Positions 6,639-58,533 of a stretch of 64,000 nucleotides of DNA are shown piece after piece. Source of the DNA: Hypericum androsaemum (lineage: Eukaryota; Streptophyta; Magnoliopsida; Malpighiales; Hypericaceae); the NCBI GenBank assembly GCA_963995505.1, contig OZ023184.1:19094228-19158227 (forward strand). Direction: 5' to 3'. The position numbers and the translations under genes are program-made. The notes under the pieces were generated by a model, which made no database searches, was not told where the DNA came from, and saw nothing but the letters and a program-made list of their open reading frames with translations. Numbering within the stretch: position 1 is the first letter of the stretch; the number at the start of each line of letters is the position of its first letter.

Positions 6639-6904
6639 TAATTTTTAGGGAAAAGTCCACTTTAGTACCCTGTAGTATCGCCCAAAATCAATTTAGTACC
6701 TTGTGGTAAAAAACCGACCAATCGAGTCATACTTAATCCAATTAACATCAAAAAGGTCCTCGGGCAGCTGCCCGGACCTGCCCGAACCCTGCCCGGACTA
6801 CGTGGCCAGCCACGTCACCAAAACTTGATGACGTGGCGCCACGTGAACATCCATCTTCTTCCCTCTCTTCCTCTCCTCCTCCTCTTCTCCTCCTCCGCCT
6901 CCTC

Positions 6905-6940
<36 letters not shown>

Positions 6941-7458
6941 CTCCACCTCCTCCTCCTCCACTTCGTCCTCCTCCTCCTCGTCCTCCTCCTCCTCCTCCTC
7001 CGCCTCCTCCTCCACTTCGTCCTCCTCCTCCTCCTCCTCCTCCACTTCGTCCTCCTCCTCTTCTCCTCCTCCTCCTCCTCCTCCTCCTCCTCCTCCTCGT
7101 CCTCCTCCTCCTTCTCCTCCTCGTCCTCCTCCTCCTCCACTTCGTCCTCCTCCTCCTCCTCCTCTGCCTCCTCCTCCTCCTCCTCCTTCTCCTCCTCCTC
7201 ATCCTCCCCCTCCGCTTCGTCCTCCTCCGCCTCGTCCTCCTCCTCCTCCTCCACGTGGCACCACGTCATCAAGTTTTGGTGACGTGGTTGGCCACGTAGT
7301 CCGGGCAGGGTTCGGGCAGGTCCGGGCAGCTGCCCGAGGACCTTTTTGATGTTAATTGGAATAAGTATGACTCGATTGGTCAGTTTTTTACCACAGAGTA
7401 CTAAAGTGATTTTGGGAGATACCACAGGGTACTAAAGTAGACTTTTTCCTACTTTTTA
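6639..7458. mobile_element. Mutator-type MITE with (CCT)n core, copy 1
   Basis: The element (6648-7449) has ~230-bp terminal inverted repeats starting GGGAAAAGTCCACTTTAGTA. Candidate 9-bp target duplications, TAATTTTTA and TACTTTTTA, match at 8 of 9 positions, as expected for a Mutator-like element. The arms include the paired segments GACGTGGC and GCCACGTC and a GGGCAGCTGCCC palindrome. The centre is a long (CCT)n tract. It encodes nothing; the long Glu/Arg, Ser and Pro frames are microsatellite translation. Related copies lie at 49.6 and 59.7 kb. Confidence 0.8.
6886..7252. repeat. (CCT)n polypyrimidine tract
   Basis: An imperfect CTC/CCT trinucleotide tract of about 370 bp interrupted by GTC, GCC and CAC units. 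The complementary strand is a G-rich polypurine. Confidence 0.9.
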
Positions 7459-20165: not shown

Positions 20166-21052
20166 GGGAAAATTTATGGGTACGGGCATCCACTCCACCA
20201 CTCACATCCAAAGGTCGAGAGGCAAAGACAGAGAAAGAGGCAGGGTAAGCAAAGACCGAAAAAAGCCTACTCCGATATATCCGTATTTTTGGATGATTAA
20301 TAACAATCGTGAGACTATTTGTCTCCTCGTTTACAAAAAAATATAAAGATCGAAATGGAGAGTAATTTTCCAGTATTTTTGCATTTAAATGATGATGATA
20401 ATTTTTACTGTATTTGAATTAATAATTTTTTATTGAATTTAGAAGAGGAAAATAATTCGGCAAGGAATATAGTAAGACATACAAAGTAAAACTTTTATTA
20501 ATCAGTTAAATATTTTTGGTTCACGACAAATATTATAGTTTCAAGCAAAAAATGACACCATACATTACATAATGACAAATTTATGAGAAAATTTAACTTA
20601 ACTAAGAGGTTTTGACTTTGAGTTATTGGAATGTAATATTATAAATTTTTATTAAAGATAGTTTTATTATTATTCAAAATTTTTATCAAGCTCGAACTTA
20701 AATTAATTAATGAAATGAGTGTCGAATTAATTAAGAAATCTCAGATTTGGATTATTAATGATGCAACAATGTTAAATACCATTAAGAAGTTTTGTCATTA
20801 TTCATGAATTATATTCTAATCAAATCTGAATTAATCTATCAAATGAGTATCTGAATACGAGAAATTTCAAAATTTTATTTATAATGTAGGTGATGGGTGG
20901 AGCCCATAGTTTCACATCATCCACAACCAGATCATCCACCACAATATTGATGGGGTAATTAAATAACACGGGGGACACAGAGGTAGAGACAAAATCTCTC
21001 TCAATGGAGGCAGGGGATATGCCAAGTCGACGGTGGAGAGACACCGGGAGAT
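20166..21052. other. Intergenic DNA left of the giant MULE
   Basis: A/T-rich with no supported gene. A short frame starting ATGGAGGCAGGGGATATG at 21005 runs into the MULE insertion point; I cannot tell whether it belongs to a former gene. Confidence 0.4.
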
Positions 21053-21061
21053 TTTTCAAAA
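21053..21061. repeat. Left candidate 9-bp target duplication of the MULE
   Basis: TTTTCAAAA directly precedes the left inverted repeat. The base run after the right end (36919-36927) is TTTTGGAAA, a match at 7 of 9 positions. Nine bases is the usual Mutator target-duplication length. Confidence 0.5.
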
Positions 21062-21136
21062 GGGGGTTGATTTCCCTGGCAATTCCCTGAATGGGGTTGT
21101 CAGGGAATGTATTCCTTGTCTGGAGTTGAGCTGGAA

Positions 21137-21345
21137 ACCGCTACGGTCGGAGCATTTTTTGGTTACCAAAAATCGCTCCCGTGGGGGCGTTATTTCTTAT
21201 ACCAAAAACCACTCCGGGCGGACCGATTTGTTTCATGCGACAAACCGTTCCCGACGGACCGTTTTCTTTCATGCCACAAAACGCTCCCACGGGAGTGTTT
21301 TCTCTCATGCCACAAAACGCTCCCGCGGGAGCGTTTTCTGTCATG
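21137..21345. repeat. Palindrome array 1 (left TIR)
   Basis: About five units at roughly 40-45 bp spacing, each a G/C-rich palindrome with T/A-rich flanks. The best unit is a perfect 24-bp palindrome at 21314-21337, with core CGCTCCCGCGGGAGCG between runs of A and T. The spacers repeat CATGCCACAAAA-like text. Confidence 0.85.
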
Positions 21346-21699
21346 CCAAAACCTTTTTGGAGCAATTTTTTTACCAAAAATTCCACCAATTTAATTCCAA
21401 TTGTCCCATTTAAACCAGACCCCGGATTATATACGTAAGCTTGCAATAAATCTCTTAAATTTTTTTCGTAATAAATCTCAGATTCCATTATTTTTTTAAC
21501 TTTTACCTGTATAATATATAATATATATGGTAGTATAAGTTATTGGGCAATTAACATCTGTAATAACGAGTCCACCCCGGTAAAACATCCACAATATACG
21601 ATAGAAACTTTTAATTTATTTTGTTAATTATCTGAAAACTAGAAAATTAAAATTGAAGGCTTAAAAAATAATAAAGCAACGAAAACTCATTACAAAAAT

Positions 21700-21862
21700 G
21701 CTGCCACAAACCGCTGTCCGGGGAGCGTTTTGTTTTTAACCAGAAACCGCTCCCGGGGAAGCGGTTTGAGGTAAAATTTTTGGGTAAAAAAAAGCCACCG
21801 GGGGGCGAATTTTTGGTTAAAAATAAAACGCTCCCCCGGGAGCGGTTTTTGGTTGAATAGAA
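21700..21862. repeat. Palindrome array 2 (left TIR)
   Basis: Three to four units of the same family, e.g. CGCTCCCCCGGGAGCGG near 21830, in T/A-rich spacers containing TTTTTGGT. It is inverted at about 36120-36275 in the right TIR. Confidence 0.8.
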
Positions 21863-22354
21863 AAATTTTTGGTAAAAAACAAAACACCTGTTTGTGGTAC
21901 AATTTTTATACCAAACATTCCATCAAACCGGCCAAAAACCGGTCCACAGCGTTTTGAATATACCAAAAATCCACGGACCATTTTTTTATCCCGCAATTCA
22001 ATTCCAATTGTCTCATTTAAACGGTCTTAACCATCATACATGTAAGCTTGCAAAAAATCTCTTAAATTTTTGTCGTCATATATTTCCATAAATCTCAGAT
22101 TTTATTAATTTTCTAACTTTTACATCTATTGTATATATGGTATTATGTTATTGCGCAAAAAATTGACAACATACAATAGAAACTTTAAATTTATTTTATT
22201 AATTATCTAAAAATTAGAAAATTAAAATTAAAATAAACCGCCTCAATGGCTAAAAAATAATAAAGCAAAACAATATATTACAACAATCTCTAGTATGAGT
22301 ACATTTTTACCGAATTCAAGGAACAATAAAGCAATACATATAGAGATTATATTC

Positions 22355-22844
22355 TCAAGTTGATGAAGTTTTGCCATGTTTCTTGAACACTTTGATGACG
22401 TTCTCATTAGTACCCTTAAGTAATTTTTGGCCATCCCCAGTATCATCCACTTTGACCTAATAAAATAACACATTAGTAAGTCAATATTTTTTCAAACCAT
22501 TTTATGGTATCATATGAGAGTGATAAAATATCTTACATTTTTTAGAACCAACACACATCCAGCAGCAACACTACCTGTGGAGTCACGTATGATACCAAAA
22601 AGACTACCGGTAGGGTCCACTAAAATCAAAATGCCCTTAGGAACGAATGTTTTCATATACAATACCATCTACAATACAAACACGAATAATACTTTATGTG
22701 GTTATTTTTTCTGAGATTTTATAGACAAATTGAATTTCTGTAAAATATTACCTGTGAAATTATACTACCACCGGGCATCTTATTGAACTCCTCAATAGGT
22801 ATCCCAATAAAGGTATTTCCAATTAGCATACCTAAAAAAATATG

Positions 22845-22893
<49 letters not shown>

Positions 22894-23241
22894 CCACAAT
22901 AAAAATGTAATAAGACAATTTAGGTAATAACATGTGATACCTTGAGCCTTATCAAAGTGAACTACTGATGTCCATGGATCTCTTTTGAAAATTTCATCAC
23001 TACGCTTCGGGACAAGAGGTAGACAACGTTTAGGGAGATTTTTTTTGTAGTCCTTCGGTTTGCCTTGAAGCTCTAGCCGTCGATCTTTAATACATTGTTT
23101 CATATCAAAATGTGAGCCATAAATTTTTTTATAATCTATACACTGACATTGAGGAGAAAGCTGGGATAGTGACAATGGACATTAAGATTCTTCTTCGCTC
23201 TCTATGTCTATATATTCTTCCCAATTTTGTGATGGATTCAT
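22355..23241 (-). pseudogene. HROB-like OB-fold protein, copy 1 (one premature stop)
   Basis: HROB (C17orf53) is an OB-fold protein that acts with MCM8-MCM9 in homologous recombination. Exons 23241-22941, 22831-22752, 22668-22537 and 22456-22355 join in frame to 204 codons. The diagnostic OB-fold strands are LVDPTGSLFGIIRDSTG, AAGCVLVLKNVKV and NENVIKVFKKH. An acidic N-terminus (NWEEYIDIESEEES) precedes a central PWTSVVHFDKAQG segment. A TAA at codon 20 interrupts exon 1, where the second copy has TAT. The intron that splits the second copy just before DPTG is absent here. It lies head-to-head with copy 2, inside the left half of the MULE. The HROB assignment rests on remembered motif similarity, not a profile search. 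Confidence 0.65.
22846..22891. repeat. (TA)n microsatellite in an HROB-like intron
   Basis: An AT run broken by single G bases, located in intron 1 of the minus-strand HROB-like gene. Confidence 0.9.
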
Positions 23242-23689
23242 TTTCTAAAGTTTTGAGATTTTGAAGGTGCGAAAGAATGATGATGTTCACACATATATAT
23301 AGATCGGATTGCCCTTATCCCTAGTATGTAAAATCCAAATCTACTTAGTGCTTCTTATAAAGATGTAAAAATCTAAGCAAATTTATTTAAAATGTCTTAT
23401 AGTCGGCGTGTTAACATAAAATGCTGTTATTAGAGCGTGGTACCAAAACTGCTGAAACTTTAGCATTTTCAGGCCTTCTCTACTATAACCCATTTGTTTG
23501 TCTAATTTGTGCTACATCATGTCTTACCCTACAAAAATTGGGATTCTTATCCAAAATTGGGATTCTTTATGATAAATCTAAATAATCTAACAACTCTATA
23601 TATATGCATGTATACAACAATTTTCTTTCACACCTTTTGCAGCTTTTCCAAATCAACTCATCTTTTATAAAAAATTGTTACTCCAAAAA
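23242..23689. promoter_or_regulatory. Shared upstream region of the two HROB-like genes
   Basis: About 450 bp separate the two divergent coding regions, so it presumably carries both promoters. TATA-like ATATATATAGAT (near 23291) and CTATATATATGC (near 23596) face the two genes. I see no CGCTCCC palindrome here. Function is inferred from position only. Confidence 0.4.
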
Positions 23690-24655
23690 AGGGATCCATT
23701 AAATAATTGGGAAGATTATTTACAATTGGATAGCGATGATGAATCGTATTATTCTTTGTCCCTAACACAATCTCTTCCTCCTCAACCTCGAACTAGTAGG
23801 ATCGCTGGTACTGCTGGCCACTACCAAAATGCTACACGAAGGGCGTTAGCTAATCGTCGTGATGGCATTAGCTCCCATCCTGAACTGACAACTCAGCAGG
23901 CCATTTATAGAGAATTTACCAACCCAATCTCTGACGACATTTTTGAAACAGATCCATGGACAACAGCAATTTCCTATATAATGGCTCAAGGTATGATGCA
24001 CAACATCTTCTATAATTTCTTTTTATTTGTCGTAATATGATATTAAAAATATTATGTTATTTTAATAGGTTTGGTAGATAGAGATATTTTTATGACCACT
24101 ATTGATGAGGCTAAACACACCAGAGATGTGCATAAAATTATGCAGGTACAACAAAATTGTTATATATTAATATATTTGATTATTTTTCATATGTAACATT
24201 TTATAACATGCATATTTTATAATTGTTGTAGATGGTTGCGATGGTCGAAATTTTTACTTCTAATGGTTTAGGTGATGCCATGGTAGTTTTGAAGGTATAA
24301 TGATAATAATTTTAAATATCCCCATAATTACTATATTTTTGACTACTTTAATTAATTTAATTTTTTAAGGACCCAACCGGTACGCTGCCTGGTAGCATAC
24401 ATCACCGTATCTTCACTGAGAGAAATTTTGTGATTGGTGCTAGATGTGCAATAATATTATCAAATGTGAGTATATCCATTTAGCGATGAAATATTACATG
24501 ACATTATTATTATCAGTACATTTATGTAACAAATATTTATTGCTATTTTTTTCAACAGTTTGTCGTTTGGGCTCCATTGCAGCGGAATGTGTTCTGCGGT
24601 AACATAACCATCAATAATGTGGTGGCAGTGTTTGCACTTGGTTCAACCATGTAAC
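23690..24655 (+). pseudogene. HROB-like OB-fold protein, copy 2 (frameshift, start codon lost)
   Basis: Paralogue of the divergent neighbour. Exons (~23690-23990, 24069-24145, 24232-24294, 24370-24465, 24559-24655) keep the frame up to the last. The OB-fold core reads DPTGTLPGSIHHRIF, IGARCAIILSN and then NITINNVVAVF. Two lesions are visible. The codon matching the neighbour's ATG is AGG (before DPLNNWEDYL), and the last exon has one base too many around 24600, giving an immediate TAA at 24601-24603 and moving NITINNVV to another frame. The N-terminal acidic stretch (LQLDSDDES) and the PWTTAISYIMAQG segment align with copy 1. An upstream start elsewhere cannot be excluded. Confidence 0.65.
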
Positions 24656-25036
24656 CATATGAGAGTGTGATTTTATGTACTTTTGTCTACATTTTGCGAT
24701 GATGTGTTTTCCCGATTATGTAATAGAAACAATGTGTTGTTATTAAATATATTTTTATGGAATGTTATACGCTGTTTTAAGAAAGTAACAACCATATAAC
24801 CTGAAATAAAAAATACTAGCATCCATATCAAATAACACAACAGAATACATAACAATAATCTCTAAAACCAAATAGTAGTATCAAAATAATACTATAAATA
24901 GATAATTTTCTGATGACTTAATCGATTTTTTAAGGACTTCAAATTTGTCGTTGGAAGGCATCTTTATTTATTAACAACCTTTAAATCACTAGACAAGAGT
25001 AGTCTTGTCCGAATAGTACAGTCATGACTAATAACA
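24656..25036. other. Intergenic within the MULE
   Basis: A/T-rich DNA after the second HROB-like gene. No gene or clear motif is seen. Confidence 0.4.
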
Positions 25037-25460
25037 TCCAAAGAGTAATAGCATCAGCTATATTGATTCGTATTCAAAAACTAATATTTCACTCTACAAA
25101 AAGTACGAGGGCCAGGGCTAGGTTTGTCATTTTTAGTAATAGTGTGCCTTTGCTTTCACTTTAGTAATATGTAATAATATTCGACAAAAAATATTGTTGT
25201 CTTAGCTTTCACTTTCCAAAAAGTATATTGCACCTATTGTCCAAAGAGTAATAGCATCACCTATATTGATTCATATTCAAAAAGTAATATTTTACTCTAC
25301 AAAAAGTACGAGGGCCATTCAGAGGCACGTTAGGGCTAGGTTTGTCTTTTTTTAGTAATAGTGTGTCCTGAGCACATTGATGTGTCTTGTCATTCAATTC
25401 ACAGGCCTGTTAGGTCTCACAGGCAGTCTTTAGGGCTATTTTTGTCGTATTTTAGTAATA
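25037..25460. repeat. Imperfect tandem duplication within the MULE
   Basis: The segment 25037-25142 (containing CAAAGAGTAATAGCATCA and AAAAGTACGAGGGCCA) recurs at 25229-25372, about 190 bp on. A third partial copy containing TTTTAGTAATAGTGTGCCT lies near 25420-25460. It is non-coding. Confidence 0.75.
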
Positions 25461-25609
25461 GTGTGCCTAGGTACATTGATTTTCGTCATTCTGCCAACTG
25501 AAACCTATATTATATAGCATGAGCTGTATTGATTTGTATCACTCGTTCTACTTGAGCCATTTTAGCTCGCGACAAGTGTAGTGCAAGGGGGTGGGGGTCG
25601 ATTTGCGAA

Positions 25610-25815
25610 AAAAAGCCGCTCCCGCCGATGCTTAAAAAAAATAAAAACCGCTCCATGTGGAGCAGTTTTTTTAATACCAAAATCCGGCTTACGGTATTAA
25701 AAAAAACCAAAAACCGCTCCATTTGGAGCATTTTTTTTAATTCCAAAAATTGCTCCAGCAGGAGCGGTTTCTGGTATTAAAAAAAAATGTTCCAGCAGGA
25801 GCAGTTTTTGGCTGA
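25610..25815. repeat. Palindrome array 3, upstream of the transposase
   Basis: Four to five variants of the TIR palindrome (for example AAACCGCTCCATGTGGAGC and GCTCCAGCAGGAGCGG), alternating with TTAATACCAAAA-like spacers. The array ends about 200 bp before the transposase ATG. The loop bases differ from the TIR units while the CGCTCC/GGAGCG half-sites persist. Confidence 0.75.
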
Positions 25816-26021
25816 TTTAATTGTTATAAATTTTGAGTTACGATTTCATTCGTACTTACCGAGTTTTCTTCTACCAAAAACCAAAAAAATCAGAGGACAT
25901 TTCCTAATTTCAACGAGAGAACCAGGTAATTTTAACATTTCGTAAAAAGTTACTGAATTTGTTATAACTTCTATAGGTTATATTAAACTGATGTAAGATT
26001 TTTTTGTAGTGGAAGCATAGT

Positions 26022-28680
26022 ATGGTAGCAGAATTCTTGTTGAGATATGATGGTAATTACTATAACGGTCCCGAAGGTCTGGATTATATCGGAGGACGGA
26101 GCAAAGTGATCAGATTTGAACATTCATTTAAATATAACCGTCTTTGTGGAGCCATTAGAAGCAAGATTGGATTTGGTAAAAATGAATATATAAGCAGGCT
26201 TCTGTTTAGATTGCCAATATTATTAGGACCACCTATTCAGTTTACTTGTATGGATGTTTGTGATGATGATGTGGACACCATGGTTAATAGTATGAATAAT
26301 TTTCCTGGTTTAAAATATCTACAACTTTATGTTGAGAAAGGAGCAATTGCTATACCACAAAATATTCATTTTGTGGATGGTCAATTGAATGTAAATAGTA
26401 CTCTTGCTTCTGAGTTCACGAGTACTATGCAATATAATTCGAGTAGACCAGGAACTTCAAGAGTGAATGATTTGGATATAAATTCTTTTCCTGCGGATGA
26501 GCCTCAGCGTCATTATAATGTTGTACATGACCCAGAATTAGAAATTCTAGTACAACGTAATAAAAATGCTGTGGAAACACTGTATCCAAATTTTGATTCA
26601 ACTGATGACGAAGATGAGCCAAATTTAGATGGTGATGCGGATGACGTACGTGAGGCATTGGTCGCTTATGATGAAGGTTGGGTCGTCAACAACCAATCAG
26701 TAGAAAGAGATTCTGATTTGAATGAGGATATGATTTGGGCAAATAAGAAAGATGTGATACAGACAGTGAAGAGATACTCCATGAAAGTTAGCTGTGACTA
26801 TTTTGTCGAAGAGTCAAAAAAGCATTGTTGGGTCGTTAGGTGTCTTCATGCGGAAGGAAGTTGTAATTGGTATTTTCGGGCATCAATTAAAAAGGGTTTT
26901 TGGGGGGTTGCCAAATACCGATATCATAGACAACTAGACTCCAAATTTATTGCTCGGTGCATATGACGTCGGATAGAACATCAACCAACTATTCCAATTA
27001 TTTCTATTATTACTGAGATTCAAGACCATCTGAAGTTTAAACCCTCTTATAAAAAAGCCTGGGCTGGGAAGCAGAAGGCAATTGCCATGATATGGGGGGG
27101 GGGGGGGGGGTGGGGGGGTTGGAAAGAATCATACAATATGTTGCCTAAATGGTTTGCTGCATGTCAAGCGGAAAATCCAGGAACAATAGTGGAGTGAGAA
27201 TATCAATATTGCTACACCGGCACCAATATTCTTGTGCCACCAAGAACTAGAATATTCAAGCGAGTGTTCTGGGCTTTCAAGCCATGCATCGATGCCTTCA
27301 AGAAATGCATTCCCATTTTGCTAATTGACGGGACGTTCCTATACGGAAAATACAAGCAAACTCTATTAATTGCAACTGCAGTAGATGGAAATAATGCTAT
27401 CATTCCGATAGCATTTGCACTTGTTGAGAGTGAAAATATTGATAGCTGGCCTTGGTTTCTGCTTCAAATTAAGATTCATGTGACAGATCCTTCTGGAATA
27501 TGTATTATTTCGGATCGTCACCCTGGCATTAAAAAGGCGATGACTACTGATGTTTGTGGCTGGGGTGAGTCGTCAGGAGCAGTCCATAGATATTGTCTTC
27601 GCCATGTTGCGAGTAACTACAACAAATACTTCAAGTGCGAGAGAATAAAAAATTTAATGAAGGTGACAGGTAACTCATTTTGAATCTTGTATTGTACGCC
27701 GACTATTAGTGAGTTCACATTTATACGGCAATGATGATTATAATTTTTTCACAGGATCAAAAGCGCAGAAGAAAAAGTTGGACAATGATTTGAATCGGAT
27801 TAGGGAAGCCCATCTTGAGTCATACCAATGGATTGAAAAGTTGGGAAAGGAAAAGTGGAGTTTAGCATATGATCACGGATATAGGTACGGCTAAATGACA
27901 ACATATATCGCAGTTATTTAGTAGTTAATTATTTATGAATGTGTTCTTTCATTCATGCTAGGTACGGCCATATGACAACAAATATTGCCGAGTGTGTTAA
28001 CAATGTGTTTAAGAAGGTCCGTCATTTGCCGGTCGCAGCTTTGGTTACTTAAACATTTGAAAAGTTACGTGACTATTTTCAGCAAAGAAGAATAGCATGC
28101 TCACAAGAAGTTGCCTCCGGTGTGAGGTATTCCGAAAAGGTGAATACAAGTTTGGAAAGGTGGAAGGCTAAGGCTCGGGGTCATACTGTGAGATTATTTG
28201 ACCATCAGCAAGGCATATGTCAAGTTACTACAGGAAGAAATGCACACTTCGACAAAGGTGGACACGATTTCGAAGTCAACTTGAATGCTAGGAAGTGCCA
28301 ATGTGGAAAATTTCAGGCACTGCATTATCCTTGCTCACATGCAATAGCTTGTTGTGTGGCGCTAAATCTCGACCACAGGTTTTTTTATTGATAAGTGCTA
28401 CAAAATGGCAAACATAAGAGATTGCTACGAGCAATTATTCCATCCACTTGGAAATGAATCTTATTGGCCACCGGTTGACTCTCCTGATGTGATACTTCTT
28501 CCAGATGACACATTATTGAGGCAAATAGGTCATCCAATGAAAAGAATACAGAATGAGATGGACCAGACACCTCGACAAGTTGTGTGTTCATTGTGTAAGA
28601 ATGAGGGCCATTCTGCCGCACATTGTACTAATGTTGAGAGTCTTGCCAGTACGAGTGGAAGAACACATCGTGGGCGTTGA
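26022..28680 (+). pseudogene. mudrA: MudrA-type MULE transposase, degenerate
   Basis: Transposase that would cut at the TIRs. Exons 26022-27669, 27755-27884 and 27962-28680 join in frame. Domains in order: an N-terminal segment with an Asp-rich linker; the MuDR DNA-binding domain (about codons 245-305: WANKKDVIQTVKRY through CHAEGSCNWYFRASI); the DDE core with first Asp in LLIDGTFLYGKYKQTLL, second in IISDRHPGIKKAM and the Glu in TTNIAECVN; a SWIM zinc finger CQCG...YPCSHAIACC; and a C-terminal knuckle CSLCKNEGHSAAHC. Lesions are TGA at 26964-26966, an in-frame Gly run from poly(G) near 27095-27119, TGA at 27195-27197, TAA at 28050-28052, and a frame change at a T7 run near 28381-28387. It cannot make full-length protein without repair or readthrough. 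Confidence 0.88.
27093..27119. repeat. Poly(G) run inside the transposase gene
   Basis: Two G runs of about 17 and 7 separated by one T. The run preserves the reading frame (Trp, Gly5, Trp, Gly2) and appears to add about six codons compared with the usual linker. It could also be a sequencing or assembly artefact. Confidence 0.8.
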
Positions 28681-29301
28681 ATTCACCAAATTTTTTTGGG
28701 AGTACTCTTTCCTTGCTGTTGGTTTCTCCTACTGAGTTTTACAACAACGTGTTTTGAACGAATCCCAGACCCATGCTATCAGAGTTATTGCTCATTTTTC
28801 GTCTTCGTAGTTTCTACGATTGTTTGTCACTTTCTCTGTTGTTGTACCTTGTTTATCGACAGTTATATTTGCTTGTAATATAATGTTAAATCTAGTGTTT
28901 AATTTGGAAGTGTGGAGGTTGTGTTTAATACATAATTATTTTATATTGTTTAGCAGGCCCAATGACGAATTATACTCCAGCCGATATTTTCTTCAATATG
29001 GGTCGATGGTGGGCCCTAGAAGATGAATTTTATTACCCATTCGACCCGTTGCTGATCAATTCACCTGCTGTAGCCCGCACAATGGTGAGTGAATGGTCTT
29101 TTCGTATTAACCAATCACATTGTCTACGTTCAGATGCACGTAGACCTGACCACGGTTCAAATTTGGACGAATTCAAATCGAATTTATTCGAATTCGAATT
29201 CATCAAAACATTAAACCGTATTCAATTCTTCACAAGACTAATCGAATACGAATTATGAATTTTTGAATTAGAATCGAATTATAATCGAATTCGAATTCGA
29301 A

Positions 29302-29802
29302 TTAATTCCAACGATGTTGAACATCTTGTGGAAAACGTTTTGGTTTCATGTTGTTTAATTTGCAAAAAATTTTCCAATCTTTTAGCAATTTTGGGCGAGC
29401 CCATAATAAATTAAGTGTTTGTTTAATTGGTCCTAATGTAGAGTCTAAAGCTTTAATTCCATCTTGGGTACAAAAATTAAATATATGACATGCACATCTA
29501 ATATGAAAAAATTTTCTTCCGAATCGTGTACAAAAAATTTCTAAATCTTTAACCATAACATTATTAGAACTTGCATTATCTAGAGAAATTGAAAATATTT
29601 TTTGAACTAGATTATATTCTTGTAAAATAGTATGCAATATTTTATAACAATTATTCCCACTATGACTATCATCAAAAACTCTATATGCAATTATTCTTTT
29701 TTGTATATTCCATTCATTATCAATCCAATGACATGTAACACCAAAATATGAATGTGTTTGCCAATGATCACTCCATATATCACAATAAGAGAAGTAGCTC
29801 AA
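29302..29802 (-). pseudogene. hAT transposase fragment
   Basis: A 166-codon open frame matching the middle of plant hAT (RICESLEEPER/Tam3-like) transposases: CDIWSDHWQTHSYFGVTCHW, then FSISLDNASSNNVMVKDL and FFHIRCACHIFNFCTQDG. The BED zinc finger and the C-terminal dimerisation domain are missing. The frame ends in the right-hand inverted-repeat DNA. Its similarity is strong but it is only a deletion remnant. Confidence 0.88.
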
Positions 29803-29929
29803 ATTAGTAAACTTGAGGGAGAATTTGAAGAATAAGAGGTGGTATGTATAGAGTTGGGAAGAAATTCTGAATTTATAAAAAAAAATTTAAAAAGTACCAA
29901 CAGTAAAAAAATGGTAACCTAGGGATTAA

Positions 29930-30090
29930 GAAAAAAATGGTAATTTGCCCCTGAAATTCAAATTACCCCCCTTTTGAATTCCCGGCCGCCCCCCCTCCCC
30001 TCCTTTTTTAAATTCCCCCCCCCCCCTTTTTGTAATTCTCGCCCCCCCCTCCCCCCTTTTTTTTAAATTCCCGCCCCCCCCCCCCTTTTT
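29930..30090. repeat. Tandem C-rich repeats in the hAT element
   Basis: Repeated blocks of CCCCCC followed by TTTTT and AATTC, four to five copies. Long C runs here are prone to length errors. Confidence 0.8.
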
Positions 30091-30580
30091 GAATTCGAAT
30101 TTGAAACGAATTACAAAAAAACTTGAACCGTATTCAATTCTTATCATGATGAATTCGAATCGAATTTTTTACGAATCGAATTATTATCGAATCGAATCAA
30201 ATTTTTTACGAATCGAATCACGAATCGGATTCAATTCATGGCCAGGTCTAGATGCACGGAGAGTAAATGTTAAGGTTCCTCGACCTATAGCTATCAACAT
30301 GCCACGCTTAAATGCCGAATTTATGCAGAGAGCTCTTTTTCGAATAAGGGAAGAAAATAATCGTATTAAGATAGATCTGAATCGATATGAGTTGAAACAG
30401 AGCATCAAAGAGTTTATTGAACATGGTGATATTCAGAGAGCACGAGAATATATATTTATGCTACAAAATGGCACAAATCCAGTAGTGGGCGATGAAGATG
30501 GCGAGTGCGTTACTAGTGAAGTCAACGAATTTGCATCAGATATTGAAATGTCAGATGAAGATAGCTAGGATATTGATAAT

Positions 30581-30991
30581 TTAGTCCTCATCGGACATGT
30601 ACTCATCAGACATATATTTTGCATTATTAAAAATACTATCACGATGCATATCTGATAAGTCTTTACCTAATGTTGATACTTGCTGTCTTGCCAAATCAAG
30701 CATATGATATCGATTTCGTCGCAGCATCATGCGATTATTCTCGTGATGGATCATGATCAGAGCTAATTCATATGAATCTATCTTGCTTTTTTCCACGTCC
30801 AGTGACCTCCTCTTCAAAACAGGCACATTCAATATTCGCAGACCTGCAACAAGTGTTTCAGACTCGGCTACTCGAAACACCCACTCTCTTTTTAGCCCAG
30901 CAAAATACTCTCTTATATCTGTATGATGTTCTTGCATATAATCATCATTAAATTGAGGAAGTATCCACCTCTGGCGGTTTCGGTGATTCAT
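30581..30991 (-). CDS. Small acidic-tailed protein, intact paralogue
   Basis: An intact 136-codon frame convergent with the broken paralogue, with 12 bp between the two stops. Shared positions include EW.FR, the block AL..I..ENNR....NRY, and an acidic end reading MSDED. The N-terminus is basic and aromatic (MNHRNRQRWILPQF). No known domain is recognised. It is the only uninterrupted frame of this length among the accessory genes of the MULE. It may have a structural or DNA-binding accessory role, but this is only inference. Confidence 0.6.
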   Translation of the reverse strand: MNHRNRQRWILPQFNDDYMQEHHTDIREYFAGLKREWVFRVAESETLVAGLRILNVPVLKRRSLDVEKSKIDSYELALIMIHHENNRMMLRRNRYHMLDLARQQVSTLGKDLSDMHRDSIFNNAKYMSDEYMSDED

Positions 30992-31496
30992 TTATATTTT
31001 TTTTGTTTTGCTATGCAAATACCAACATCGGTAAGCTTCTTATTTATAGGCTTAAATTCGTGTGACTTTTTTCAATCCGTGAATCTGTAGTTATGAAAAA
31101 AATAGTACACCTATTATTATATGTGTCCAAAATCTCAACTGTTGTGACGTGAGTGTGCAGTCGTACTAAAATATTGTAATAAAATTATTTTTCTATCAAT
31201 GGCAAAAAATGCTGCTCCGTGGAAAATTACTTCCGGATCAAATTTTATTTCCCCAGGATCAAATTGAACCAACATGTATATCTTCGGTGGAAAATAACTC
31301 AACGCGAGGTACTATCTACCAAAAAATAAGAGCATTCTAAATTCACGAAAATCAGCCATAAGAATATGAACAATCAAATTGTAAATAATACCATAACCAA
31401 GCGAGAGTTTCGAATATTTATTAAAAATAGAGTTTTCAACCAAACTAAAATTCAACATATATCACTAATAGTTTTTCCAAAACAGTGTCCCACCAT

Positions 31497-34327
31497 TCAG
31501 CTGCGTTTGCCTCTACGTTTCCAAAACATATTTTTTTCACTAGTCGTGTATGGCTCTGGAGCGTGATGGTCTCTAATGCCTCGGCGTAGTTCCACAGGTT
31601 GATTGTCACATTCTCTTTCCTCTTCATTGTCACTTTCACCATCAACCTGCATGTCTTCATTGTTATTTATCGGTTCACTCACAACTGTTGTTAGGTGTGC
31701 AACATTCGGTCCACCAATATCATGTTGTACACCTGGACTTATTATGTTCATCAAGTCACCGACATCTGCAAAAGACCCCGAGATATGGGAAAAAGGCGTG
31801 TATGACAATATACCAGCAAAATTTTGAAAGGTTGGAAGTGCTGGTGTCCCAAACATCTGCGGTCTATATAGATTTTGCTGTGACGATTGTCCTTCCATCT
31901 CTGAATGCCCATACAATTGATGGGAACTTGACCCCGGAACACCAGGATCATGAGGTGGCATGTAATCATTCCATTGTAGGGGTGGCATAACAGGATTATA
32001 AGGTATCGGTTCCACACTCGGAACTGGTCTCCTGCCACTTGCAAGGATTTTTTTACGTCTACCCCACGGTTTCTAATAAGATAAAATTAGGTAAGTTAAC
32101 TTAATATATTTAATATTAAAAATTGAGTCAACTTTGTAACACATTCTACCTTCTCTTCTTCTCGAATTCCATAATTCGCATTGAATTCGACACTATAGAA
32201 TTCCTCAGAAATGGGCATACCAAGATAGCGGCGTTGCTCTTCAGCTACACCAAGTGCTGATTCCGCCATACGACGAAGCTCATCATTTTGAGACATATGC
32301 CTCATCTGTTCAATTGCATCACCCTATTATACAAAATTGTGAATCATTAGTATATAATATTAATTTAAAAGACATCTTAATTTTAATTTATATAATAAAT
32401 TTACTTACCAATATAGGTTGTACGGCACCACGCGGTGTTATAAAGCGTACCGTTATTTGCCTGTACCAATCCAAGTATCTACTGTGAAAATGAATATCCA
32501 TATTATTTGCAGGAGGACCTCTTACCACATGCCTATGGCGATTTAACCACACTTCCACATGACATTTATATTGGACTTCCCAGTCTATATCAGTTCTACC
32601 TCTGCGCTGTCCCGCATGGATACCGTTGTCGGGCTCAGGATGCTGTGGGATGGGTTGCGCTATCCCAAATTGTCTCAAAACTTGATCTGGATAGTGCCAC
32701 TCCACAGCATGAAAACTAATTAATGGTACTTGGGCTTTCCAGCACTGTACAATTTCTTCATCAAAGCTAGGTTTCTCGTCTATTAGTGATTGATAAGGTT
32801 GCCACATAATCTACAATAAAAAAGTAAACTTAATGAATTTGATACAAAAAACTATGAGCATGCATTTTCTTTAAAGATGATATGTAATAGAAAATGTAAG
32901 ATGACATACATCTGAGGGGGAAAGATTTTCAAGCACTCGTCTTATATCAGCCATATTTGTCTTAAAAGACCTCTTCTTGTTAATGACCGAAGTCCACCTG
33001 CATTAGAAAAATAATTGTCAAGAAAAAATGGATAATATAACAAAGACCTATTTACATTTAACTAATTATAAATTCCAACCTGATGCCTATAGCTTCTCCA
33101 GGTTGTGGTATTCGTTCCTTTTTTAGAACGGGACGACAAGGACGAATCTGCTCCCAAGCCCACATAGAAATCAAATAAGTGGCTCCAGCGATTTCGTTGC
33201 TTTTTGGGTTGGTAGCAATACACAATTGGTTGTAAAAATGGGCCAAACATGCGCTACCCCAGCTATATATATCAAGAAATTCCAGATCCTCGAGAAATGG
33301 CAACCAGCAAGTATGAACATGGCTATCACTCTTCTCGAAAAAGAGTAAGGCTCCCATCAAAAAATATATGTTTGCTCTAACATACTACCGAACCATCTCT
33401 TCCGGGGCATCTTCACTTAGATCAGATGGATTGAATTCAGATAGCAACCAATTAAAACTTATTGTGTTACCCCTGCTACCATTTGCATATTGAGAAAGAT
33501 CTTTACCAAAAAGATTAAAGCACAACGCTCCCCAATCATTCGGAGTCTGCAGTCCAGTGAGCGGTTTTCCATCAACTGGCAGCCCTAGCAAAACTGACAC
33601 ATCTTGAAGAGTGATGGTCATTTCACCATCAGGCATATGGAAGGTGTGCGTCTCAGGACGCCATCTCTCCACCAATGCAGTTATCAAAAACCAATCGATG
33701 TGCTTTATAAATCCAATGCACCACACATGCCCAAAACCCGATTCAGCCAAATAACGTGCAAATCTCGCGTTCTTAACTGGCCTCTGTTTGAATTCTCGAC
33801 GACGAACTCTTATTGGTTCGTCAAATTTGTTGTTGAACGCCTCTCCACGTTGTTTGTTAACCTACACGAAGTTTCACAAATTAATAAAATATATAATTGA
33901 ATACAAGTTTTTAACAACAAAATACGGTGGTGAGGTGTTACGTTTTGCTTTGCTTCGTTTCTTTTATCAAATTGTTTTTCATCCCGAGTATTAACTAGGT
34001 TAACTAATATAAATTTGGGTGACTTTAAAAACATAGAATTTTTTCTAACAAAATTTTTAGGTTGCTTCATCTAAATTTCAAAATAGATAAAATAACTAAA
34101 AACGGTGATGAGGTAGTTCATATAATTGAATACAAGTTTTTAACAATAACTGGCATATCACGAATAAAAAAAAGTTTTGAACTATTTTACAAACAATTTT
34201 ATACTATACGAACCTCATTAATCCATACGGCTTTTGCACGATGAACATTAGATAATGTTAACAATTCTCTAGATTGCGATGTTCCTTCATGTTCGATGAA
34301 ATCAGACGAACATGGGCGTTGCTCCAT
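31497..34327 (-). pseudogene. Plant mobile domain protein (MAIN/MAIL-like), one premature stop
   Basis: PMD proteins (Arabidopsis MAIN and MAIL1) act in silencing of transposons and genes; TE-borne versions are known in MULEs and gypsy elements. Exons 34327-34214, 33861-33080, 32997-32910, 32810-32409, 32323-32150 and 32072-31497 join in frame to about 711 codons. PMD core motifs include FGHVWCIGFIKHIDWFLITA, ALVERWRPETHTFHMPDGEM, TITLQDVSVLLGLPVDGKPL, YSWGSACLAHFYNQL and SFHAVEWHYPDQVLRQFG. The C-terminal exon is Pro/Gln/Ser-rich with an acidic stretch (ESDNEEEREC) and resembles the tail of 'phosphatase 7 long form homologue' proteins, but I see no phosphatase domain. A TAG at 33387-33385 interrupts the core between EEMVR and YVRANIYFLMGAL. 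All other borders are clean, so the loss looks recent. Confidence 0.85.
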
Positions 34328-35815
34328 CTGTAACAAAAGCAACAATAATTTAAATTGCTATTTTTTAATCAATAAAAAAGAATTCTGTCCAAGCATCTTT
34401 ATAATCATCAACTTACCACATTTTTATACAAGTCAAGAAAACTACACAAGTCATCAACTTACCACATTTTTATACAAGTCAAGAAAACTACATGAGTATA
34501 GTATAATATATTGTTTGCCAAGTAGCAGAAAATATCATAATATAATTCTGTCTTGGACCAATTTTCTATTATACTAACGAACCTACAAAAAAGCTAATCG
34601 CCATACAATCGAGATAACAATCGACATGCAATCGAGATAACAAGTTAAAAAATAATAAATAATAAAACGATAACAAGTTACAAAAAAGCTACAAAACAAT
34701 AATAACGAAGCTACAAAAAAGCTACAAAAAAATCAATTACATGCAATCGAGAATGGAGGCAAAAAAAAATAACAGGTTGAAATCGAAATCGAAAGCTGGG
34801 AAGTTTTCGTTTTACCCGGAAAAAAAATCATGAATGCAAAACATGCAAATTGGGGATCTTGGGAGCTAATCTGAAAAACTTAAAAAAAAAACTGAAAAAC
34901 GCTAAGAATGGAGCGGTTTAAAAAAAACCAGAAAACGCTAAGAATAAAAAACCAGAAAATGCTAAGAATGGAGCGGTTCTAAAAATATAACCAAACCGAC
35001 TACTCCAATTCAGGATCTTCCGCTGCACGGAGGTTCAGAGCCAAACCGAGCCAAACCGACAACTCCAAGAGCACTCATCCATAAACCGTTACTGGTACAA
35101 ATAACATAAAGAAATGTAACCAACGTTTATTGAAAAAAAATACCATGAATAGGAAACATGCAAATCTGGGATCTTGGGAGCTAATCTAAAAAACAGCAAG
35201 TTAAAAAAAAATTGGAAAACGCTTAAGATGGAGCGGTTCTTAAAAAAAAACCAAAAACAAAAATGCTCAAGGCCGAGTGTTTCTAATGTTAAAAAAAAAG
35301 CTGAGATGTGAAATTGGAAACATGCAATATCGAAAACGAGGAAATTAAGGAAATTCCTTGGGTCTCCGGTGGTCGGGGCAGCTTCCTTGGGTCTCCGGTG
35401 GTCGGGGCAGCTTCCTTGGGTCTCCGCTGGTCCGGGTCGTCTATGTTGGTAGGAATTAAAAAGAGAGAAAATTAGAGGAGAGAAAATTATTTTTAGTGGA
35501 GGAGGCAGAGAGGAGAGGCAAACATAGAGGAAGGAGGAGATAGGAGGTAGGGTTTTAATTGATTTTTTTACAATTACATAAATAACCTTGGTAAAAATAT
35601 AATTTTGAGGGTAAACCACGCTACCGGAGGAGCAGTTTTTGGTCAAAAAGAAAATGCTCCCCCGGAAGCGGTTTGTGGGTAGAAAGAAAAATTTTTGGTA
35701 AAAAACAAAACGCTCCCGGGCAGCGATTTTTGGTAAAATTTTTTGTTGAAAAAGAAAAAGCTCCCCCGGGAGCGGTTTTTGGTAAAAAAAATCTGAGATC
35801 TGAGATTTATGGAGC
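34328..35815. other. Right internal flank of the MULE
   Basis: No gene. It holds a ~45-bp tandem duplication (34417-34490, ACATTTTTATACAAGTCAAG twice), a ~300-bp-spaced duplication (34826-34930 and 35133-35245, both with GATCTTGGGAGCTAATCT), a 29-bp unit in three copies at 35359-35445 (GGGTCTCCGGTGGTCGGGGC), and palindrome half-sites GGAGCGGTT among A runs. The 247-residue frame on the minus strand is read through these repeats and is rejected. Confidence 0.6.
35630..35815. repeat. Palindrome array 4, inside the right TIR
   Basis: About three units of the CGCTCCCGGG/GGGAGCG family with GGTAAAAAA spacers. It lies just inside the right TIR without an evident inverted partner at the left end. 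Confidence 0.7.
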
Positions 35816-36918
35816 GGTTTGCCCAATAACATATAATACCATATATACTATAGATGTAAAAGTTAGAAAATTAATGAAATCTGAGATTTATGGAGATATA
35901 TGACTACAAAAATTTAAGAGATTTTTTGCAAGCTTACATGTATAATGGTTAAGACCGTTTAAATGAGACAATTGGAATTGAATTGCGGGATAAAAAAATG
36001 GTCCGTGAGTTTTTGGTATATTCAAAACACTGTGGACCGATTTTTGGCCGGTTTGATGGAATGTTTGGTATAAAAATTGTATCACAAACAGGTGTTTTAT
36101 TTTTTACCAAAAATTTTTCTATTCAACCAAAAACCGCTCCCGGAGGAGCATTTTCTTTTTAACCAAAAATCTGGCCCCCGGTGGCTTTTTTTTTACCCAA
36201 AAATTTTACCTCAAACTGCTTCCCCGGGAGCGATTTCTGGTTAAAAACAAAACGCTCCCCGGACAGCGGTTTGTGGCAGCATTTTTGTAATGAGGTTTCG
36301 TTGCTTTATTATTTTTTAAGCCTTCAATTTTAATTTTCTAGTTTTCAGATAATTAACAAAATAAATTAAAAGTTTCTATCGTATATTGTGGATGTTTTAC
36401 CGGGGTGGACTCGTTATTACAGTTGTTAATTGCCCAATAACTTATACTACCATATATGTTATATATTATACAGGTAAAAGTTAAAAAAATAATAGAATCT
36501 GAGATTTATTACGACAAAAATTTAAGAGATTTATTGCAAGCTTACGTATATAATCCGGGGTCTGGTTTAAATGGGACAATTGGAATTAAATTGGTGGAAT
36601 TTTTGGTAAAAAAATTGCTCCAAAAAGGTTTTGGCATGAAAGAAAATGCTACCGCGGGAGCGTTTTGTGGCATGAGAGAAAACGGTCCCGTGGGAGCGTT
36701 TTGTGGTATGAAAGAAAACGGTCCGTCGGGAGCGATTTGTGGCATGAAACAAATCGGTCCGCCCGGAGCAGTTTTTGGTATAAGAAATAACGCCCCAACG
36801 GGAGCAGTTTTTGGTAACCAAAAAATGCTCCCACCGTAGCGGTTTCCGGCTCAACCCCAGACAAGGAATACATTCTCTGACAACCCCATTCAGGGAATTG
36901 TCGGGGAAATCAACCCCC
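35816..36918 (-). repeat. Right terminal inverted repeat of the MULE
   Basis: Inverted copy of 21062-22157, including both palindrome arrays (about 36120-36275 and 36640-36845). Its terminal CAACCCCC mirrors the left GGGGGTTG. Confidence 0.88.
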
Positions 36919-36927
36919 TTTTGGAAA
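36919..36927. repeat. Right candidate 9-bp target duplication of the MULE
   Basis: TTTTGGAAA, matching the left TTTTCAAAA at 7 of 9 positions; the pair suggests the insertion is not recent. Confidence 0.45.
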
Positions 36928-37728
36928 CACCCTGCTCGTTCACCACCCCTTTTTCCTCTATTATTTTTCTAGAGTGTAGACATTATTTTCCAATTCGGTT
37001 TTTAGTCATTAATCGGTTATCATTCTTCAGATTAGTTTCCATTAATGTCCAGACAATTCCCACTAATTACAGAGATTGGATTCAGTGAAAACTACATAAA
37101 AATTATCTCCATAGTATGGATTAAATTTGGATCATATAATTTAATTTTTAAAACTCATTTTTAGACCTGACGATCATTATCATTTGAGAACACAATAATA
37201 TTTTTACTCAAAAAGACCACCTAAAGAATGGAATACGAAGGGGAACAATTATTCAAATCATCTTCTCTGCACTAACCCTAATCCAATTTGCACGAGAAGC
37301 TTGGAGGCGGCCATATGGCCGGATCCAGCCTTATCGCCAAACAAGGTGATGGTCATTAATCTTCCCAAGCTTTATCTTCCCAAGAGCTAGATCGAAGACG
37401 ACTTTGCCCCCTCCATCTTCCTAGTCCCACTCGACACCAGATCGCAGACGACTTCACCTCCTCCACCATGAAGCGCCAGATCGAGAACGCTCTGGAGATG
37501 GCTAAGGCTTTTGGGGTTGTTGGACTTCGTCCAGGCTATGGTGACGCTCCGGTTTTGGTTATGCCTCCTCGTCTTTGAAGAAATAGCCATGTACAGATGG
37601 ATTTTCTTTTTATAATTTTTTTAGTTATATACTTTGATTAGTATCTGATTGTATTCTGATAAATTGTGAGATCAACATTTAAATGGTAATGTGTTGCTTC
37701 TTCATTTTCTTACACTTGTTAATGGGTT
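36928..37728. other. Intergenic right of the MULE
   Basis: No supported gene. A 36-codon frame at 37468-37578 (MKRQIENALEMAKAFG...) shows coding-like composition but no recognisable family; it may be an exon or gene fragment. Confidence 0.35.
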
Positions 37729-38198: not shown

Positions 38199-38287
38199 AG
38201 CAAGCAAACAATGAGAGAAAAATGATGGGTTGTGGGTGAGAGATTTCAGCCCGAGAATGGTTCACATGTTTAGTAACGATGGTATGT

Positions 38288-38705
38288 ATGATTTTCAATA
38301 CCAATACCAGAGAAGAAGGATACCAATACCAGAGAAGAAGGATACCAATATATAGAAGAAGAAAATCAATACCCGAGAAAAAGGATACCAATATCCGAGT
38401 ACAATGATATCAATATCAGAGGAGAAGAAAACCAATACCAGAGAAGAAGGATACCAATATCAGAGAAAAATAATACCAGTATCCGAGAAGAAGAAAACCA
38501 ATATCATAGAAGAAGGAAAACAATACCCGACAAGAAGGATACCAATATCCGAGTACAATGATACCAATATCTGAGTAGAAGAAAACTAATATCATAGAAG
38601 AATGACACCAGTATCAGAGTTAAAGGATATCAATATCATAAAAAAAGCAAACCAATATCTGAGAAGAAAGAAACCAATATCAGAGTACAAAGATACCAAT
38701 ATTCT
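38288..38705. repeat. Minisatellite of ~20-bp units
   Basis: About twenty imperfect tandem units around GATACCAATATCAGAGAAGA. Variants differ in CCAGAG/CCGAG and AGGAG/ACAATG positions, so the array has decayed by point changes while keeping its register. Non-coding. Confidence 0.9.
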
Positions 38706-39056
38706 TATTGTATTTTCTTAAATTGTATTATTTTCTATAATTGTATTTTCATAAATTGTATTATTTTTTGGTGTTACTGATAGTGTTGTTAGGATAATTG
38801 GATAATATTTATTTTTTTTAATTATTTCTATAATTGTATTTCCTAATTTATAATTTTTTTTATTAATAATGGTGTACTAATATTACCCATATTCCTATCA
38901 GTAGACTAAATTCGAACCCCTAATTACATAGCTTTTGACCGACATGCGGAGAAAAATATTAGATAAGACATTATCACATCCAATATTGTTTCGCTTTCTT
39001 CTTCCGAAGATATTCGATCCGATTGGGGCATTAATTAACCTTCACAAAAATTATAT
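38706..39056. other. A/T-rich intergenic DNA
   Basis: Low-complexity TTGTATTTTC-like repeats directly after the minisatellite; no gene. Confidence 0.4.
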
Positions 39057-49603: not shown

Positions 49604-50055
49604 TTATTCTTTGGGAAAAGTCCACTTTAGTACCCTGTGGTATCGACCAAAATCACTTTAGTATCCTGTGGTAAAAAATCGATCAATCGAGTCATAATTA
49701 TTCCAATTAACATCCTCTCCGCGTCCTCCTCCTCCTCCCCGCCTCCTCCTCCTCCTCCTCCCCGCCTCCTCCTCCTCCTCCCCGCGTTCCCTCCTCCTCC
49801 CCCCCTCCTCCTCCTCCTCCTCCCCGCCTCCTCCTCCTCCTCCTCCTCTCCACGTGGCGCCACATCATCAAAAATTGGTGACGTGGCTGGCCACGTAGCC
49901 CAGGCAGGGTTCGGGCAGCTCCGGGCATCTGCCCGAGGCCCTTTTTTATGTTAATTGGAATAAGTATGACTCGATTGATCGGTTTTTTACCACAGGTACT
50001 AAAGTGATTTTGATCGATACCACAGGTACTAAAGTGGACTTTTCCCTTATTCGTT
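49604..50055. mobile_element. Mutator-type MITE with (CCT)n core, copy 2
   Basis: The element (49613-50046) has TIRs GGGAAAAGTCCACTTTAGTA and its inverse. Flanks TTATTCTTT and TTATTCGTT match at 8 of 9. It is shorter than the copies at 6.6 and 59.7 kb: most of its left inner arm is missing and the CCT tract starts about 100 bp in. It lies ~360 bp upstream of the PP2A ATG. Confidence 0.8.
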
Positions 50056-52579: not shown

Positions 52580-52611
52580 AGTTATAGGATGGGCCGTAAA
52601 TAGACAACCTC

Positions 52612-54381: not shown

Positions 54382-54424
54382 GTCGATCACTGGATCGGAG
54401 TACCCTTTCTCAGTCTAATTTTTT

Positions 54425-57400: not shown

Positions 57401-58533
57401 AAGTTGGTAAGACTGCAGACTCACTGACATAGATACTTACACCTACGGGTGAGTTCTCTACCAAGACAGCATACATGTTAGCCTTGAACAATCCCCAGCC
57501 ACCAGCGATTCAACACGAGGGCTGGAAGAATATATGGTCGCTAAAGGTACCTGATAAGATCCGAGTCTTCTTATTTTTGTGCAAGAAAGAACGAATTATG
57601 ACCAACAAGGAAAGATGGAGAAGGAAGTTCGCTACTAATCCATATTGCCCTACTTGCAAGGACAGGCAGGAAACAATTCTTCATGTCCTGCGAGATTGTC
57701 CGAAGGCTGAAAGAATTTGGAGAAATCTAATACCTCGGAACCACCAGGGCCTCTTCTACTCCCTGAACCTGCATCATTGGCTGGACACTAACGTCACAAC
57801 CACCATCTGCGGGCCCACAGACACCCCTTGGAACATCATATTTGCTACTACGACATGGTGGCTATGGAGATGGCGTAACAACGAAATTTTCAGCACTGAC
57901 TACTTCCAGGGAGACAAGTGCTCCTTTGTCTTGATGCAGGCCAAAGAATTCAAGTCTGCTTGGCAGAATTCCATACCGAAACTAGGACCCCAGAGGCACA
58001 GAGAGGCAAGAAGAACACATTGGAGCCCTCCCCCTACAGGATGGCTAAAGTTGAACGTCGATGGCTCCTCCAGAGGCAACCCAGGACCTGCGGGAGGTGG
58101 GGGCGTCTTTCGAGATGCTGAAGGAAATTGGAACCTTGGTTTCCTCCAAAATACTGGCCAATGTGACGCGATCACCTCAGAAATTTGGGCAATCTGGCGA
58201 GGATTAAAGATTGCTCGAGAGAAGAAGTACCCCCGGCTTGTGGTCGAAACTGACTCGCAACTGGCTGTCCGGTACCTAACCGAGGGAGTGGCAAGAGACA
58301 ACAACCTATACTCCCTTGTGAATAGCTGCAAGGACCTTATTCGTCTTATTGAGAGAATAGACGTCGTATTTTGTATTAGAGATTGCAACATTGTAGCTGA
58401 TAGGCTAGCCTCCCTTGCTCTCGACCTCCAGGGTGGTTATCAGGAGCTAGTCGACCCCCCGGAGTACTGTATCCCTTTACTTTCCGCAGATGCTGCTGTC
58501 ATTTCCTGCTGTAACTTAATTTCTAATGAATGA
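54425..58533 (+). pseudogene. LINE ORF2: endonuclease-reverse transcriptase-RNase H, broken twice
   Basis: ORF2 nicks target DNA and copies the element RNA into it. The endonuclease (about residues 1-230) has VWNVCGA, LLETQ, TGDFNAI, RLDRAL and SDHSPLL. The reverse transcriptase has FRPISLCNVAYKV, QGSFVPGRQITDN, KLDLEKAYDRLRW, TRGLRQGDPISPYLF and the catalytic FADD. Frame 1 stops at 57379. Shortly before, at about 57365-57375, the frame shifts, and the next frame contains TAG at 57429-57431, probably a Trp codon originally. From 57475 a 352-codon frame carries a zinc-ribbon (PTCKDRQETILHVLRDCP) and an RNase H domain (LNVDGSSRGNPGPAGGGG, DSQLAVRYL). The reverse transcriptase is thus intact and the RNase H is cut off. 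Confidence 0.92.

Follow-up and report, generated by a model that had tools for sequence, protein, structure and literature searches.

A Mutator-Like Element of Hypericum androsaemum That Carries a Pair of HROB-like Genes

Introduction

Long terminal inverted repeats (TIRs), target site duplications (TSDs) of the 8–11 bp class and internal deletions are features that maize MuDR has in common with the element described here, a Mutator-like element (MULE) of ~15.9 kb that houses, beside the mudrA transposase gene, two HROB-like genes, two small-protein genes and a plant mobile domain (PMD) gene. It lies in a 64,000-nucleotide stretch of the Hypericum androsaemum genome (assembly GCA_963995505.1, contig OZ023184.1, positions 19,094,228 to 19,158,227), hereafter referred to as the window. 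MuDR is approximately three times shorter, and we know of no identification of mudrB as an HROB protein. Helitrons offer another likeness, since these DNA transposons, too, encode an OB-fold, repair-related protein; their RPA-like proteins, however, belong to a different protein family, and the elements are of the rolling-circle type.

MuDR (mudrA, mudrB; PMC6446971) is a MULE with a second gene, and VANDAL and Kaonashi elements (mudrA, vanB, vanC, ULP1; PMC6446971, PMC13317346) are multi-gene MULEs in which one accessory gene is anti-silencing. The TIRs of VANDALs are absent or short and degenerate, whereas those of the window element are long, and no ULP1 match was found among the eight element proteins scanned. 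A unit repeated inside a long TIR recalls MULEs with multiple TIRs (PMC3310237), whose abstract-level description is of tandem TIRs and, in one family, a gene fragment. PMD genes in MULEs have already been published, as transposase fusions of grasses and Amborella (PMC5418596); in place of a fusion, the window element has a separate six-exon PMD gene on the opposite strand, together with the HROB pair and the small pair. With host HROB/MCM8IP (PF15072; PMC7290032, PMC11055865) HROBp shares the N-terminus, the GPAG motif and the OB-fold, but the element proteins are shorter, lack the C-terminal tail, are encoded inside a transposon and occur in divergent pairs. The initial annotation of the window had suggested a new gene complement. 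As far as PMD is concerned, this is anticipated by the published cases; as far as HROB is concerned, no MULE with such a gene was found described in the open-licence literature by title, abstract or passage, and a 2026 gene-capture review (PMC13317346) nowhere mentions an OB-fold or a mobile domain.

Architecture of the Element and State of the Window Copy

The element spans window positions 21046–36932. Its arms (21053–22146 and 35833–36927) are inverted repeats with 95%/94% identity, and comparison with sibling copies shifts the ends 5–7 bases outward, to ~21046 and ~36932. The left TIR contains an internal repeat whose units are 69% alike over 284 bases. Six genes were modelled between the 1.1 kb TIRs, and both the ~15.9 kb MULE with ~1.1 kb inverted ends and the content of mudrA plus five further genes that had been proposed from the sequence were thereby borne out. 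The features are as follows:

21046–22146, no strand: left TIR, 95%/94% identity to the right arm, outer end placed from siblings
22355–23241, minus strand: HROBm, HROB-like gene of 4 exons (22941–23241, 22752–22831, 22537–22668 and 22355–22456 in the gene model), below the PF15072 cut-off
23690–24654, plus strand: HROBp, HROB-like gene of 5 exons, above the PF15072 cut-off
26022–28680, plus strand: mudrA, PF10551 and SWIM domains, 3 nonsense codons and 1 frameshift
28962–30568, plus strand: smP, small protein of 162 aa, split by a hAT-like insertion
29141–30250, no strand: nested hAT-like element of 1110 bp, transposase-like remnant on the minus strand
30581–30991, minus strand: smM, small protein of 136 aa, frame open
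31497–34327, minus strand: PMD gene, 6 exons, 711 aa, one in-frame TAG
35833–36932, no strand: right TIR, from the arm comparison, outer end placed from siblings

The element has the attributes of a MULE: a transposase domain with a SWIM finger, long TIRs of 1.1 kb and, in siblings, a TSD. The mudrA product matches PF10551 with 68 bits (8e-19) and SWIM PF04434 with 27 bits (3e-6). Comparison with the copies on contigs C4 and C10 (the window is on C5) revealed three in-frame stops and a frameshift at a T-run in the window mudrA; two of the three nonsense codons are common to the C10 copy and none is found in C4. A poly-G frameshift was also considered and rejected, since the frames agree on both sides of the run. 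With stops in mudrA, PMD and HROBm and a split smP, the window copy is a decayed member of a six-gene MULE family and is not autonomous.

For the window copy, the best TSD candidate agrees at 6 of 8 positions, which is within background and falls short of an 8–11 bp duplication. The same search of six siblings returned perfect TSDs in L029 and C10, a TSD at the 99th percentile of background in C8, TSDs near the 95th percentile in L032 (8/9) and C11 (7/8), and nothing above background in C4; with ends placed by eye, and only then, C4 and C6 have an 8/9 TSD. At least three siblings carry a TSD above background. A first guess, TTTTCAAAA/TTTTGGAAA, was rejected because it derived from palindromic TIR sequence. 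The window arms are 95.7% alike over 1104 bases, closer than in the six other copies measured, whose best-scoring pieces are 74.6–89.0% alike over lengths of 193–927 bases. Arms that are closer than those of siblings and are not accompanied by a TSD suggest gene conversion or rearranged ends at the window copy.

Products of the Accessory Genes

HROBp and HROBm are arranged head-to-head as a divergent pair. The curated cut-off of PF15072 is 30.8 bits. HROBp matches this profile with 62 bits (4.7e-17) in the window and 70.7 bits (1e-19) in the open C6 copy; HROBm reaches 26 bits in the window and 26–28 bits in open copies. The earlier assignment of both OB-fold genes to HROB is thus upheld for HROBp and falls below the threshold for HROBm. 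The HROBp frame is open in the window, with the ATG absent where siblings start. HROBm has one in-frame stop in the window copy and is open in C6 and L035; stop counts for the window and C4 copies (two private, none shared) indicate that the two have different stop codons at the same position. Open HROB frames with GT..AG introns are present in C6 (both genes), C4 (HROBp) and L035 (HROBm).

A protein database search with HROBp returned four matches, none named as a transposon protein, to which it aligns through the N-terminus, the GPAG region and the OB-fold; the N-terminus is present in 2/4 and GPAG in 2/4 of these rows, the remaining rows being shorter. The C-terminal LPxxTDxQL tail is found in three of the four, while the element proteins stop just past the OB-fold and are 204–210 aa long, compared with 297–360 aa in the four database rows. 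Against PDB sequences HROBp produced two matches, both insignificant.

The PMD assignment was confirmed by PF10536 (253 bits, 5.2e-75, full profile 1–347 of 347). In a tree with 33 references taken from 120 listed hits, none of which is labelled PMD-A or -B, the element PMD stands apart from the MAIN/MAIL rows on a long branch (support 94/88). A divergent PMD at C16:11327311–11327859 was not counted, as the 1.3 kb TIR pair listed there does not enclose it. Annotated proteins with both PMD and MULE parts, P0045 (Vitis piasezkii) and P0093 (Senna tora), are also present in the material, and MULE-borne PMD genes seem to occur in further eudicots beyond the genome of the window.

The two small proteins are paralogous (32% over 62 aa, E 5e-9), as had been proposed. 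Neither matched a Pfam family above the cut-off, and a database search with smM scored 0 of 2 candidates; an AlphaFold model of smM alone was discarded (mean predicted local distance difference test score 42.7). The insertion that splits smP, which we take to be hAT-like from its TSD length, terminal sequence and open reading frame (ORF), is flanked by the 8 bp TSD GATGCACG (29133–29140 and 30251–30258), and the C4 and C10 copies carry the single, empty site. A second smM family with 54–71% identity accounts for more than 20 rows (C13, C18, C19, C4 and others); some of these (C10:4961036 and C18:7795963) adjoin other MULE domains, with no PF15072 near these two among the matches listed.

Recurrence of the Gene Set in the Genome

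The genome that holds the window (385 Mb) was searched with individual genes. The PF15072 profile yielded 40 matches (150 of 298 candidates scored), smM 84 (114 of 114), a mudrA exon at least 152 (best 150 of 570), a PMD exon at least 150 (best 150 of 419) and HROBp 165 rows, often several exons from the same locus (150 of 174). The PF10551 list (best 150 of 736, all outscoring the window) was left out of the co-location analysis, and smP was not searched for genome-wide. Co-location is counted among the matches listed, here and below, and misses in these lists are not proof of absence.

HROB, mudrA, smM and PMD occur together at six loci (C2, C4, C5, which is the window, C7, C12 and C17). Out of 40 PF15072 matches, 15 have smM, mudrA or PMD within 13 kb (0.77 by chance), and mudrA, smM or PMD is located within 16 kb of 20 of the 28 HROBp exon-1 loci, the window included (0.2 by chance). 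All these partners of HROBp are downstream, mudrA on the same strand (10/10) and smM (12/12) and PMD (16/16) on the opposite one. A head-to-head HROBm partner is visible by cross-similarity alone at 14 of the 28. Other elements with an equal gene order, for which the initial annotation had proposed a search, are thus present. Fourteen flanks from seven copies proved to be unrelated, save for one 594-bp repeat and one 52-bp match. Since the gene order is repeated at loci with unrelated flanks, which is more than chance would give, the gene set is not a chance assembly.

A PMD match is found within 13 kb of 97 of the 150 mudrA matches; in all 97 pairs the nearest PMD is downstream on the opposite strand, and a mudrA with an opposite-strand PMD is present at about a hundred loci. 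The HROB pair and the small pair are extra modules in only part of the mudrA-PMD elements. A large and apparently young family of related MULEs with PMD was also seen, with many near-equal mudrA matches (63–71% to the window), a good share of which have an open frame longer than 500 aa, and with a PMD on the opposite strand ~6 kb downstream.

Sibling Copies and Deletion Derivatives

The TIR search of the genome returned at least 288 matches (40 of 530 candidates scored), and 19 stretches around TIR matches, some adjacent to each other, were read. Since these loci were chosen by TIR, they carry no information on occurrences of the genes beyond TIRs. The C4 copy contains all six genes, with 94–96% DNA identity outside the TIRs. 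In the C6 copy (13445271–13457722) both HROB genes are open, mudrA is cut short and PMD is present; the C10 copy has mudrA, smP, smM and PMD and no HROB. C8, C11, L029, L032, L035 and L038 are shorter copies. Deletion breakpoints fall inside one gene or more in 7/8 copies (the exception is C10), and six show overlaps of 1–9 bases, counted without a chance control. As the junctions cut into genes, the shorter TIR elements are internal deletions of the long element and not its building blocks.

Among 18 TIR loci with 1.5 kb flanks (L003–L020), HROBm or PMD turns up at five, and at the remaining 13 no gene of the set is seen; judging from the listed TIR spacing, we take the latter to be short non-autonomous elements. 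Gene-free TIRs, which the initial annotation had set against a common gene set, therefore do exist, whereas the elements with one or two genes are deletion products.

The HROB Pair in Other Element Families and Selection

Five further stretches were read at three PF15072 places. An element on C16 contains HROBm, HROBp, mudrA and PMD in the same order as in the window, with no smP or smM match. At a locus on C14, the mudrA end is 38–49% and PMD 30% identical to the window family, while the divergent HROB pair is far closer (dS 0.25 for HROBp and 0.43 for HROBm, compared with 1.0 or saturated for the mudrA tail). The pair is located on the other side of mudrA, so that the order differs from that in the window, and the locus also has related non-coding DNA. 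Since the HROB pair is close and mudrA and PMD are far diverged, the pair has thus moved between element families, or the remainder has been replaced around it. A third HROBm-like piece lies beside the C14 divergent pair (L043 1636–1864).

The ratio of non-synonymous to synonymous substitution rates (dN/dS) of HROBp is 0.32–0.33 in comparison with C16 (p 1.1e-4 and 8.4e-5) and 0.43–0.49 with C14 (p 0.001 and 0.0065). The C16 and C14 rows contain in-frame stops (one in each HROB comparison with C16), and such decay raises the ratio. Between element families, purifying selection acts on HROBp. For HROBm the ratio is 0.50 with C16 (p 0.023 and 0.013) and 0.60–0.62 with L041, the latter not significant (p 0.13–0.14). 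Between families, mudrA exon 1 gives 0.58–0.66 (p 0.006–0.054), the second exon piece 0.83 (p 0.49, not significant) and the last two exon pieces 0.46–0.47 (p 0.06 and 0.018); PMD gives 0.55 (p 5e-7).

Other Features of the Window

A tandem array of a 22-bp unit lies just outside the element (38286–38747). A non-long terminal repeat retrotransposon, long interspersed nuclear element-like by ORF reading, occupies positions 52600–58533; its first ORF is 593 aa long, and its second has the look of an endonuclease, reverse transcriptase and RNase H and is interrupted at 57379/57433. A short repeat is present three times (6642–7451, 49836–50048 and 60094–60306), the first being an inverted pair around a low-complexity stretch. 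At 584–2552, two inverted arms of 245 bp (80% alike) with 1.5 kb between them possibly belong to a small DNA transposon.

Discussion

What would a MULE do with a pair of HROB-like genes? Human HROB binds MCM9 through its OB-fold and MCM8 through a stretch upstream of the fold, and both contacts matter for helicase stimulation (PMC11055865, in the passages cited); loss of MCM8IP/HROB reduces long-tract gene conversion most (PMC7290032, likewise), and deletions in maize MuDR have been ascribed to interrupted repair (cited in a passage of PMC10288884). Taken together, these contacts, the long-tract role and the MuDR deletions would make repair of the gap left by the excised MULE, mediated by HROB, the most economical role, with PMD and the small proteins acting against silencing; we give this reading a little less than an even chance. 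The mudrA product would cut the element out. By interacting with host MCM8-9, the HROB proteins would then promote extended DNA synthesis from a homologous template across the gap, and an element of 16 kb would be restored where it might otherwise be lost; the internally deleted siblings would be products of interrupted gap repair. Both functions, gap repair and anti-silencing, had been put forward in the initial annotation and would follow from what the domains do elsewhere. A more specific history, in which a MULE lineage took up a near-full-length HROB of the host that was duplicated into a divergent pair, is handed from one element family to another as a cassette and recruits MCM8-9 for long-tract copy-back of very large elements, is a tentative extension that we consider possible but rather doubtful.

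Several observations weigh against the gap-repair reading. No listed partner is nearby at 25 of the 40 PF15072 matches and at 8 of the 28 HROBp loci, and at L041 (C8) the HROB pieces are diverged and the 6 kb read contain no mudrA. The mudrA-PMD pairs (97) outnumber the HROBp loci (28), so that HROB is not needed for amplification. In the young family the selection signal is absent (shared N:S 21:9 versus private 267:99, p 0.68), and young copies decay neutrally. No copy was both read whole and intact, and no host HROB gene was identified in the analysis. Finally, the residue that we take to correspond to the phenylalanine of human HROB that contacts MCM9 is W in HROBp and lost in HROBm.

Alternatively, the targets of the HROB proteins may be host MCM8-9 or RPA, with the proteins serving as decoys or as cofactors of transposition, for instance by holding excised DNA for insertion. 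The missing C-terminal tail of plant HROB and the divergence of HROBm at the OB-fold would fit such a role, and selection reveals constraint, not the direction of action; on the other hand, HROBp retains the N-terminus, the GPAG motif and the OB core, which is beyond the needs of a minimal decoy, and we regard this explanation as plausible yet on the unlikely side. Much the same standing, that of a minority possibility, is given to an accessory set that serves mainly against silencing, with PMD as a decoy of MAIN/MAIL1/PP7L, the small pair VANC-like and HROB secondary. Host PMD proteins act in silencing of transposable elements, and the authors of that work call the use of captured PMD for anti-silencing a tempting speculation (PMC5418596, in the passages cited); the frequent proximity of PMD to mudrA (97/150) is in line with this, whereas the HROB pair is left unexplained and the element PMD occupies a long, isolated branch.

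Capture of gene fragments is frequent in MULEs (PMC13317346, by passage), and, with young copies decaying neutrally, the accessory genes could all be passengers that were acquired by transduplication and have no function for the element. The constant strand pattern at many loci, the complete introns and open frames, the presence of the HROB pair in distinct families and the purifying selection between families speak against this; for HROBp (dN/dS 0.32) it is largely refuted, and for the set as a whole we find it improbable. That several smaller nested elements contribute one gene each is scarcely credible: smaller TIR elements with one or two genes do exist (L029, L035 and L038) and one nested hAT-like element is present, but the former are deletion derivatives, with junctions that cut into a gene in 7/8, and the gene combination is found at six loci. 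The view of the initial annotation that this is one MULE is therefore retained.

Cut-and-paste elements gain copies when gap repair uses an element-bearing template, and the larger the element, the longer the synthesis; a transposon equipped with a relative of a long-tract conversion factor makes the gap-repair idea testable. The element proteins are also HROB variants that evolved outside the host. MULE accessory genes behave as exchangeable modules (a PMD core, an HROB pair and a small pair), which provides a framework for the anti-silencing question. The recurrence of the gene set suggests that some transposons supply repair helpers themselves, and, if the HROB cassette reading is true, a DNA transposon would encode its own choice of repair.

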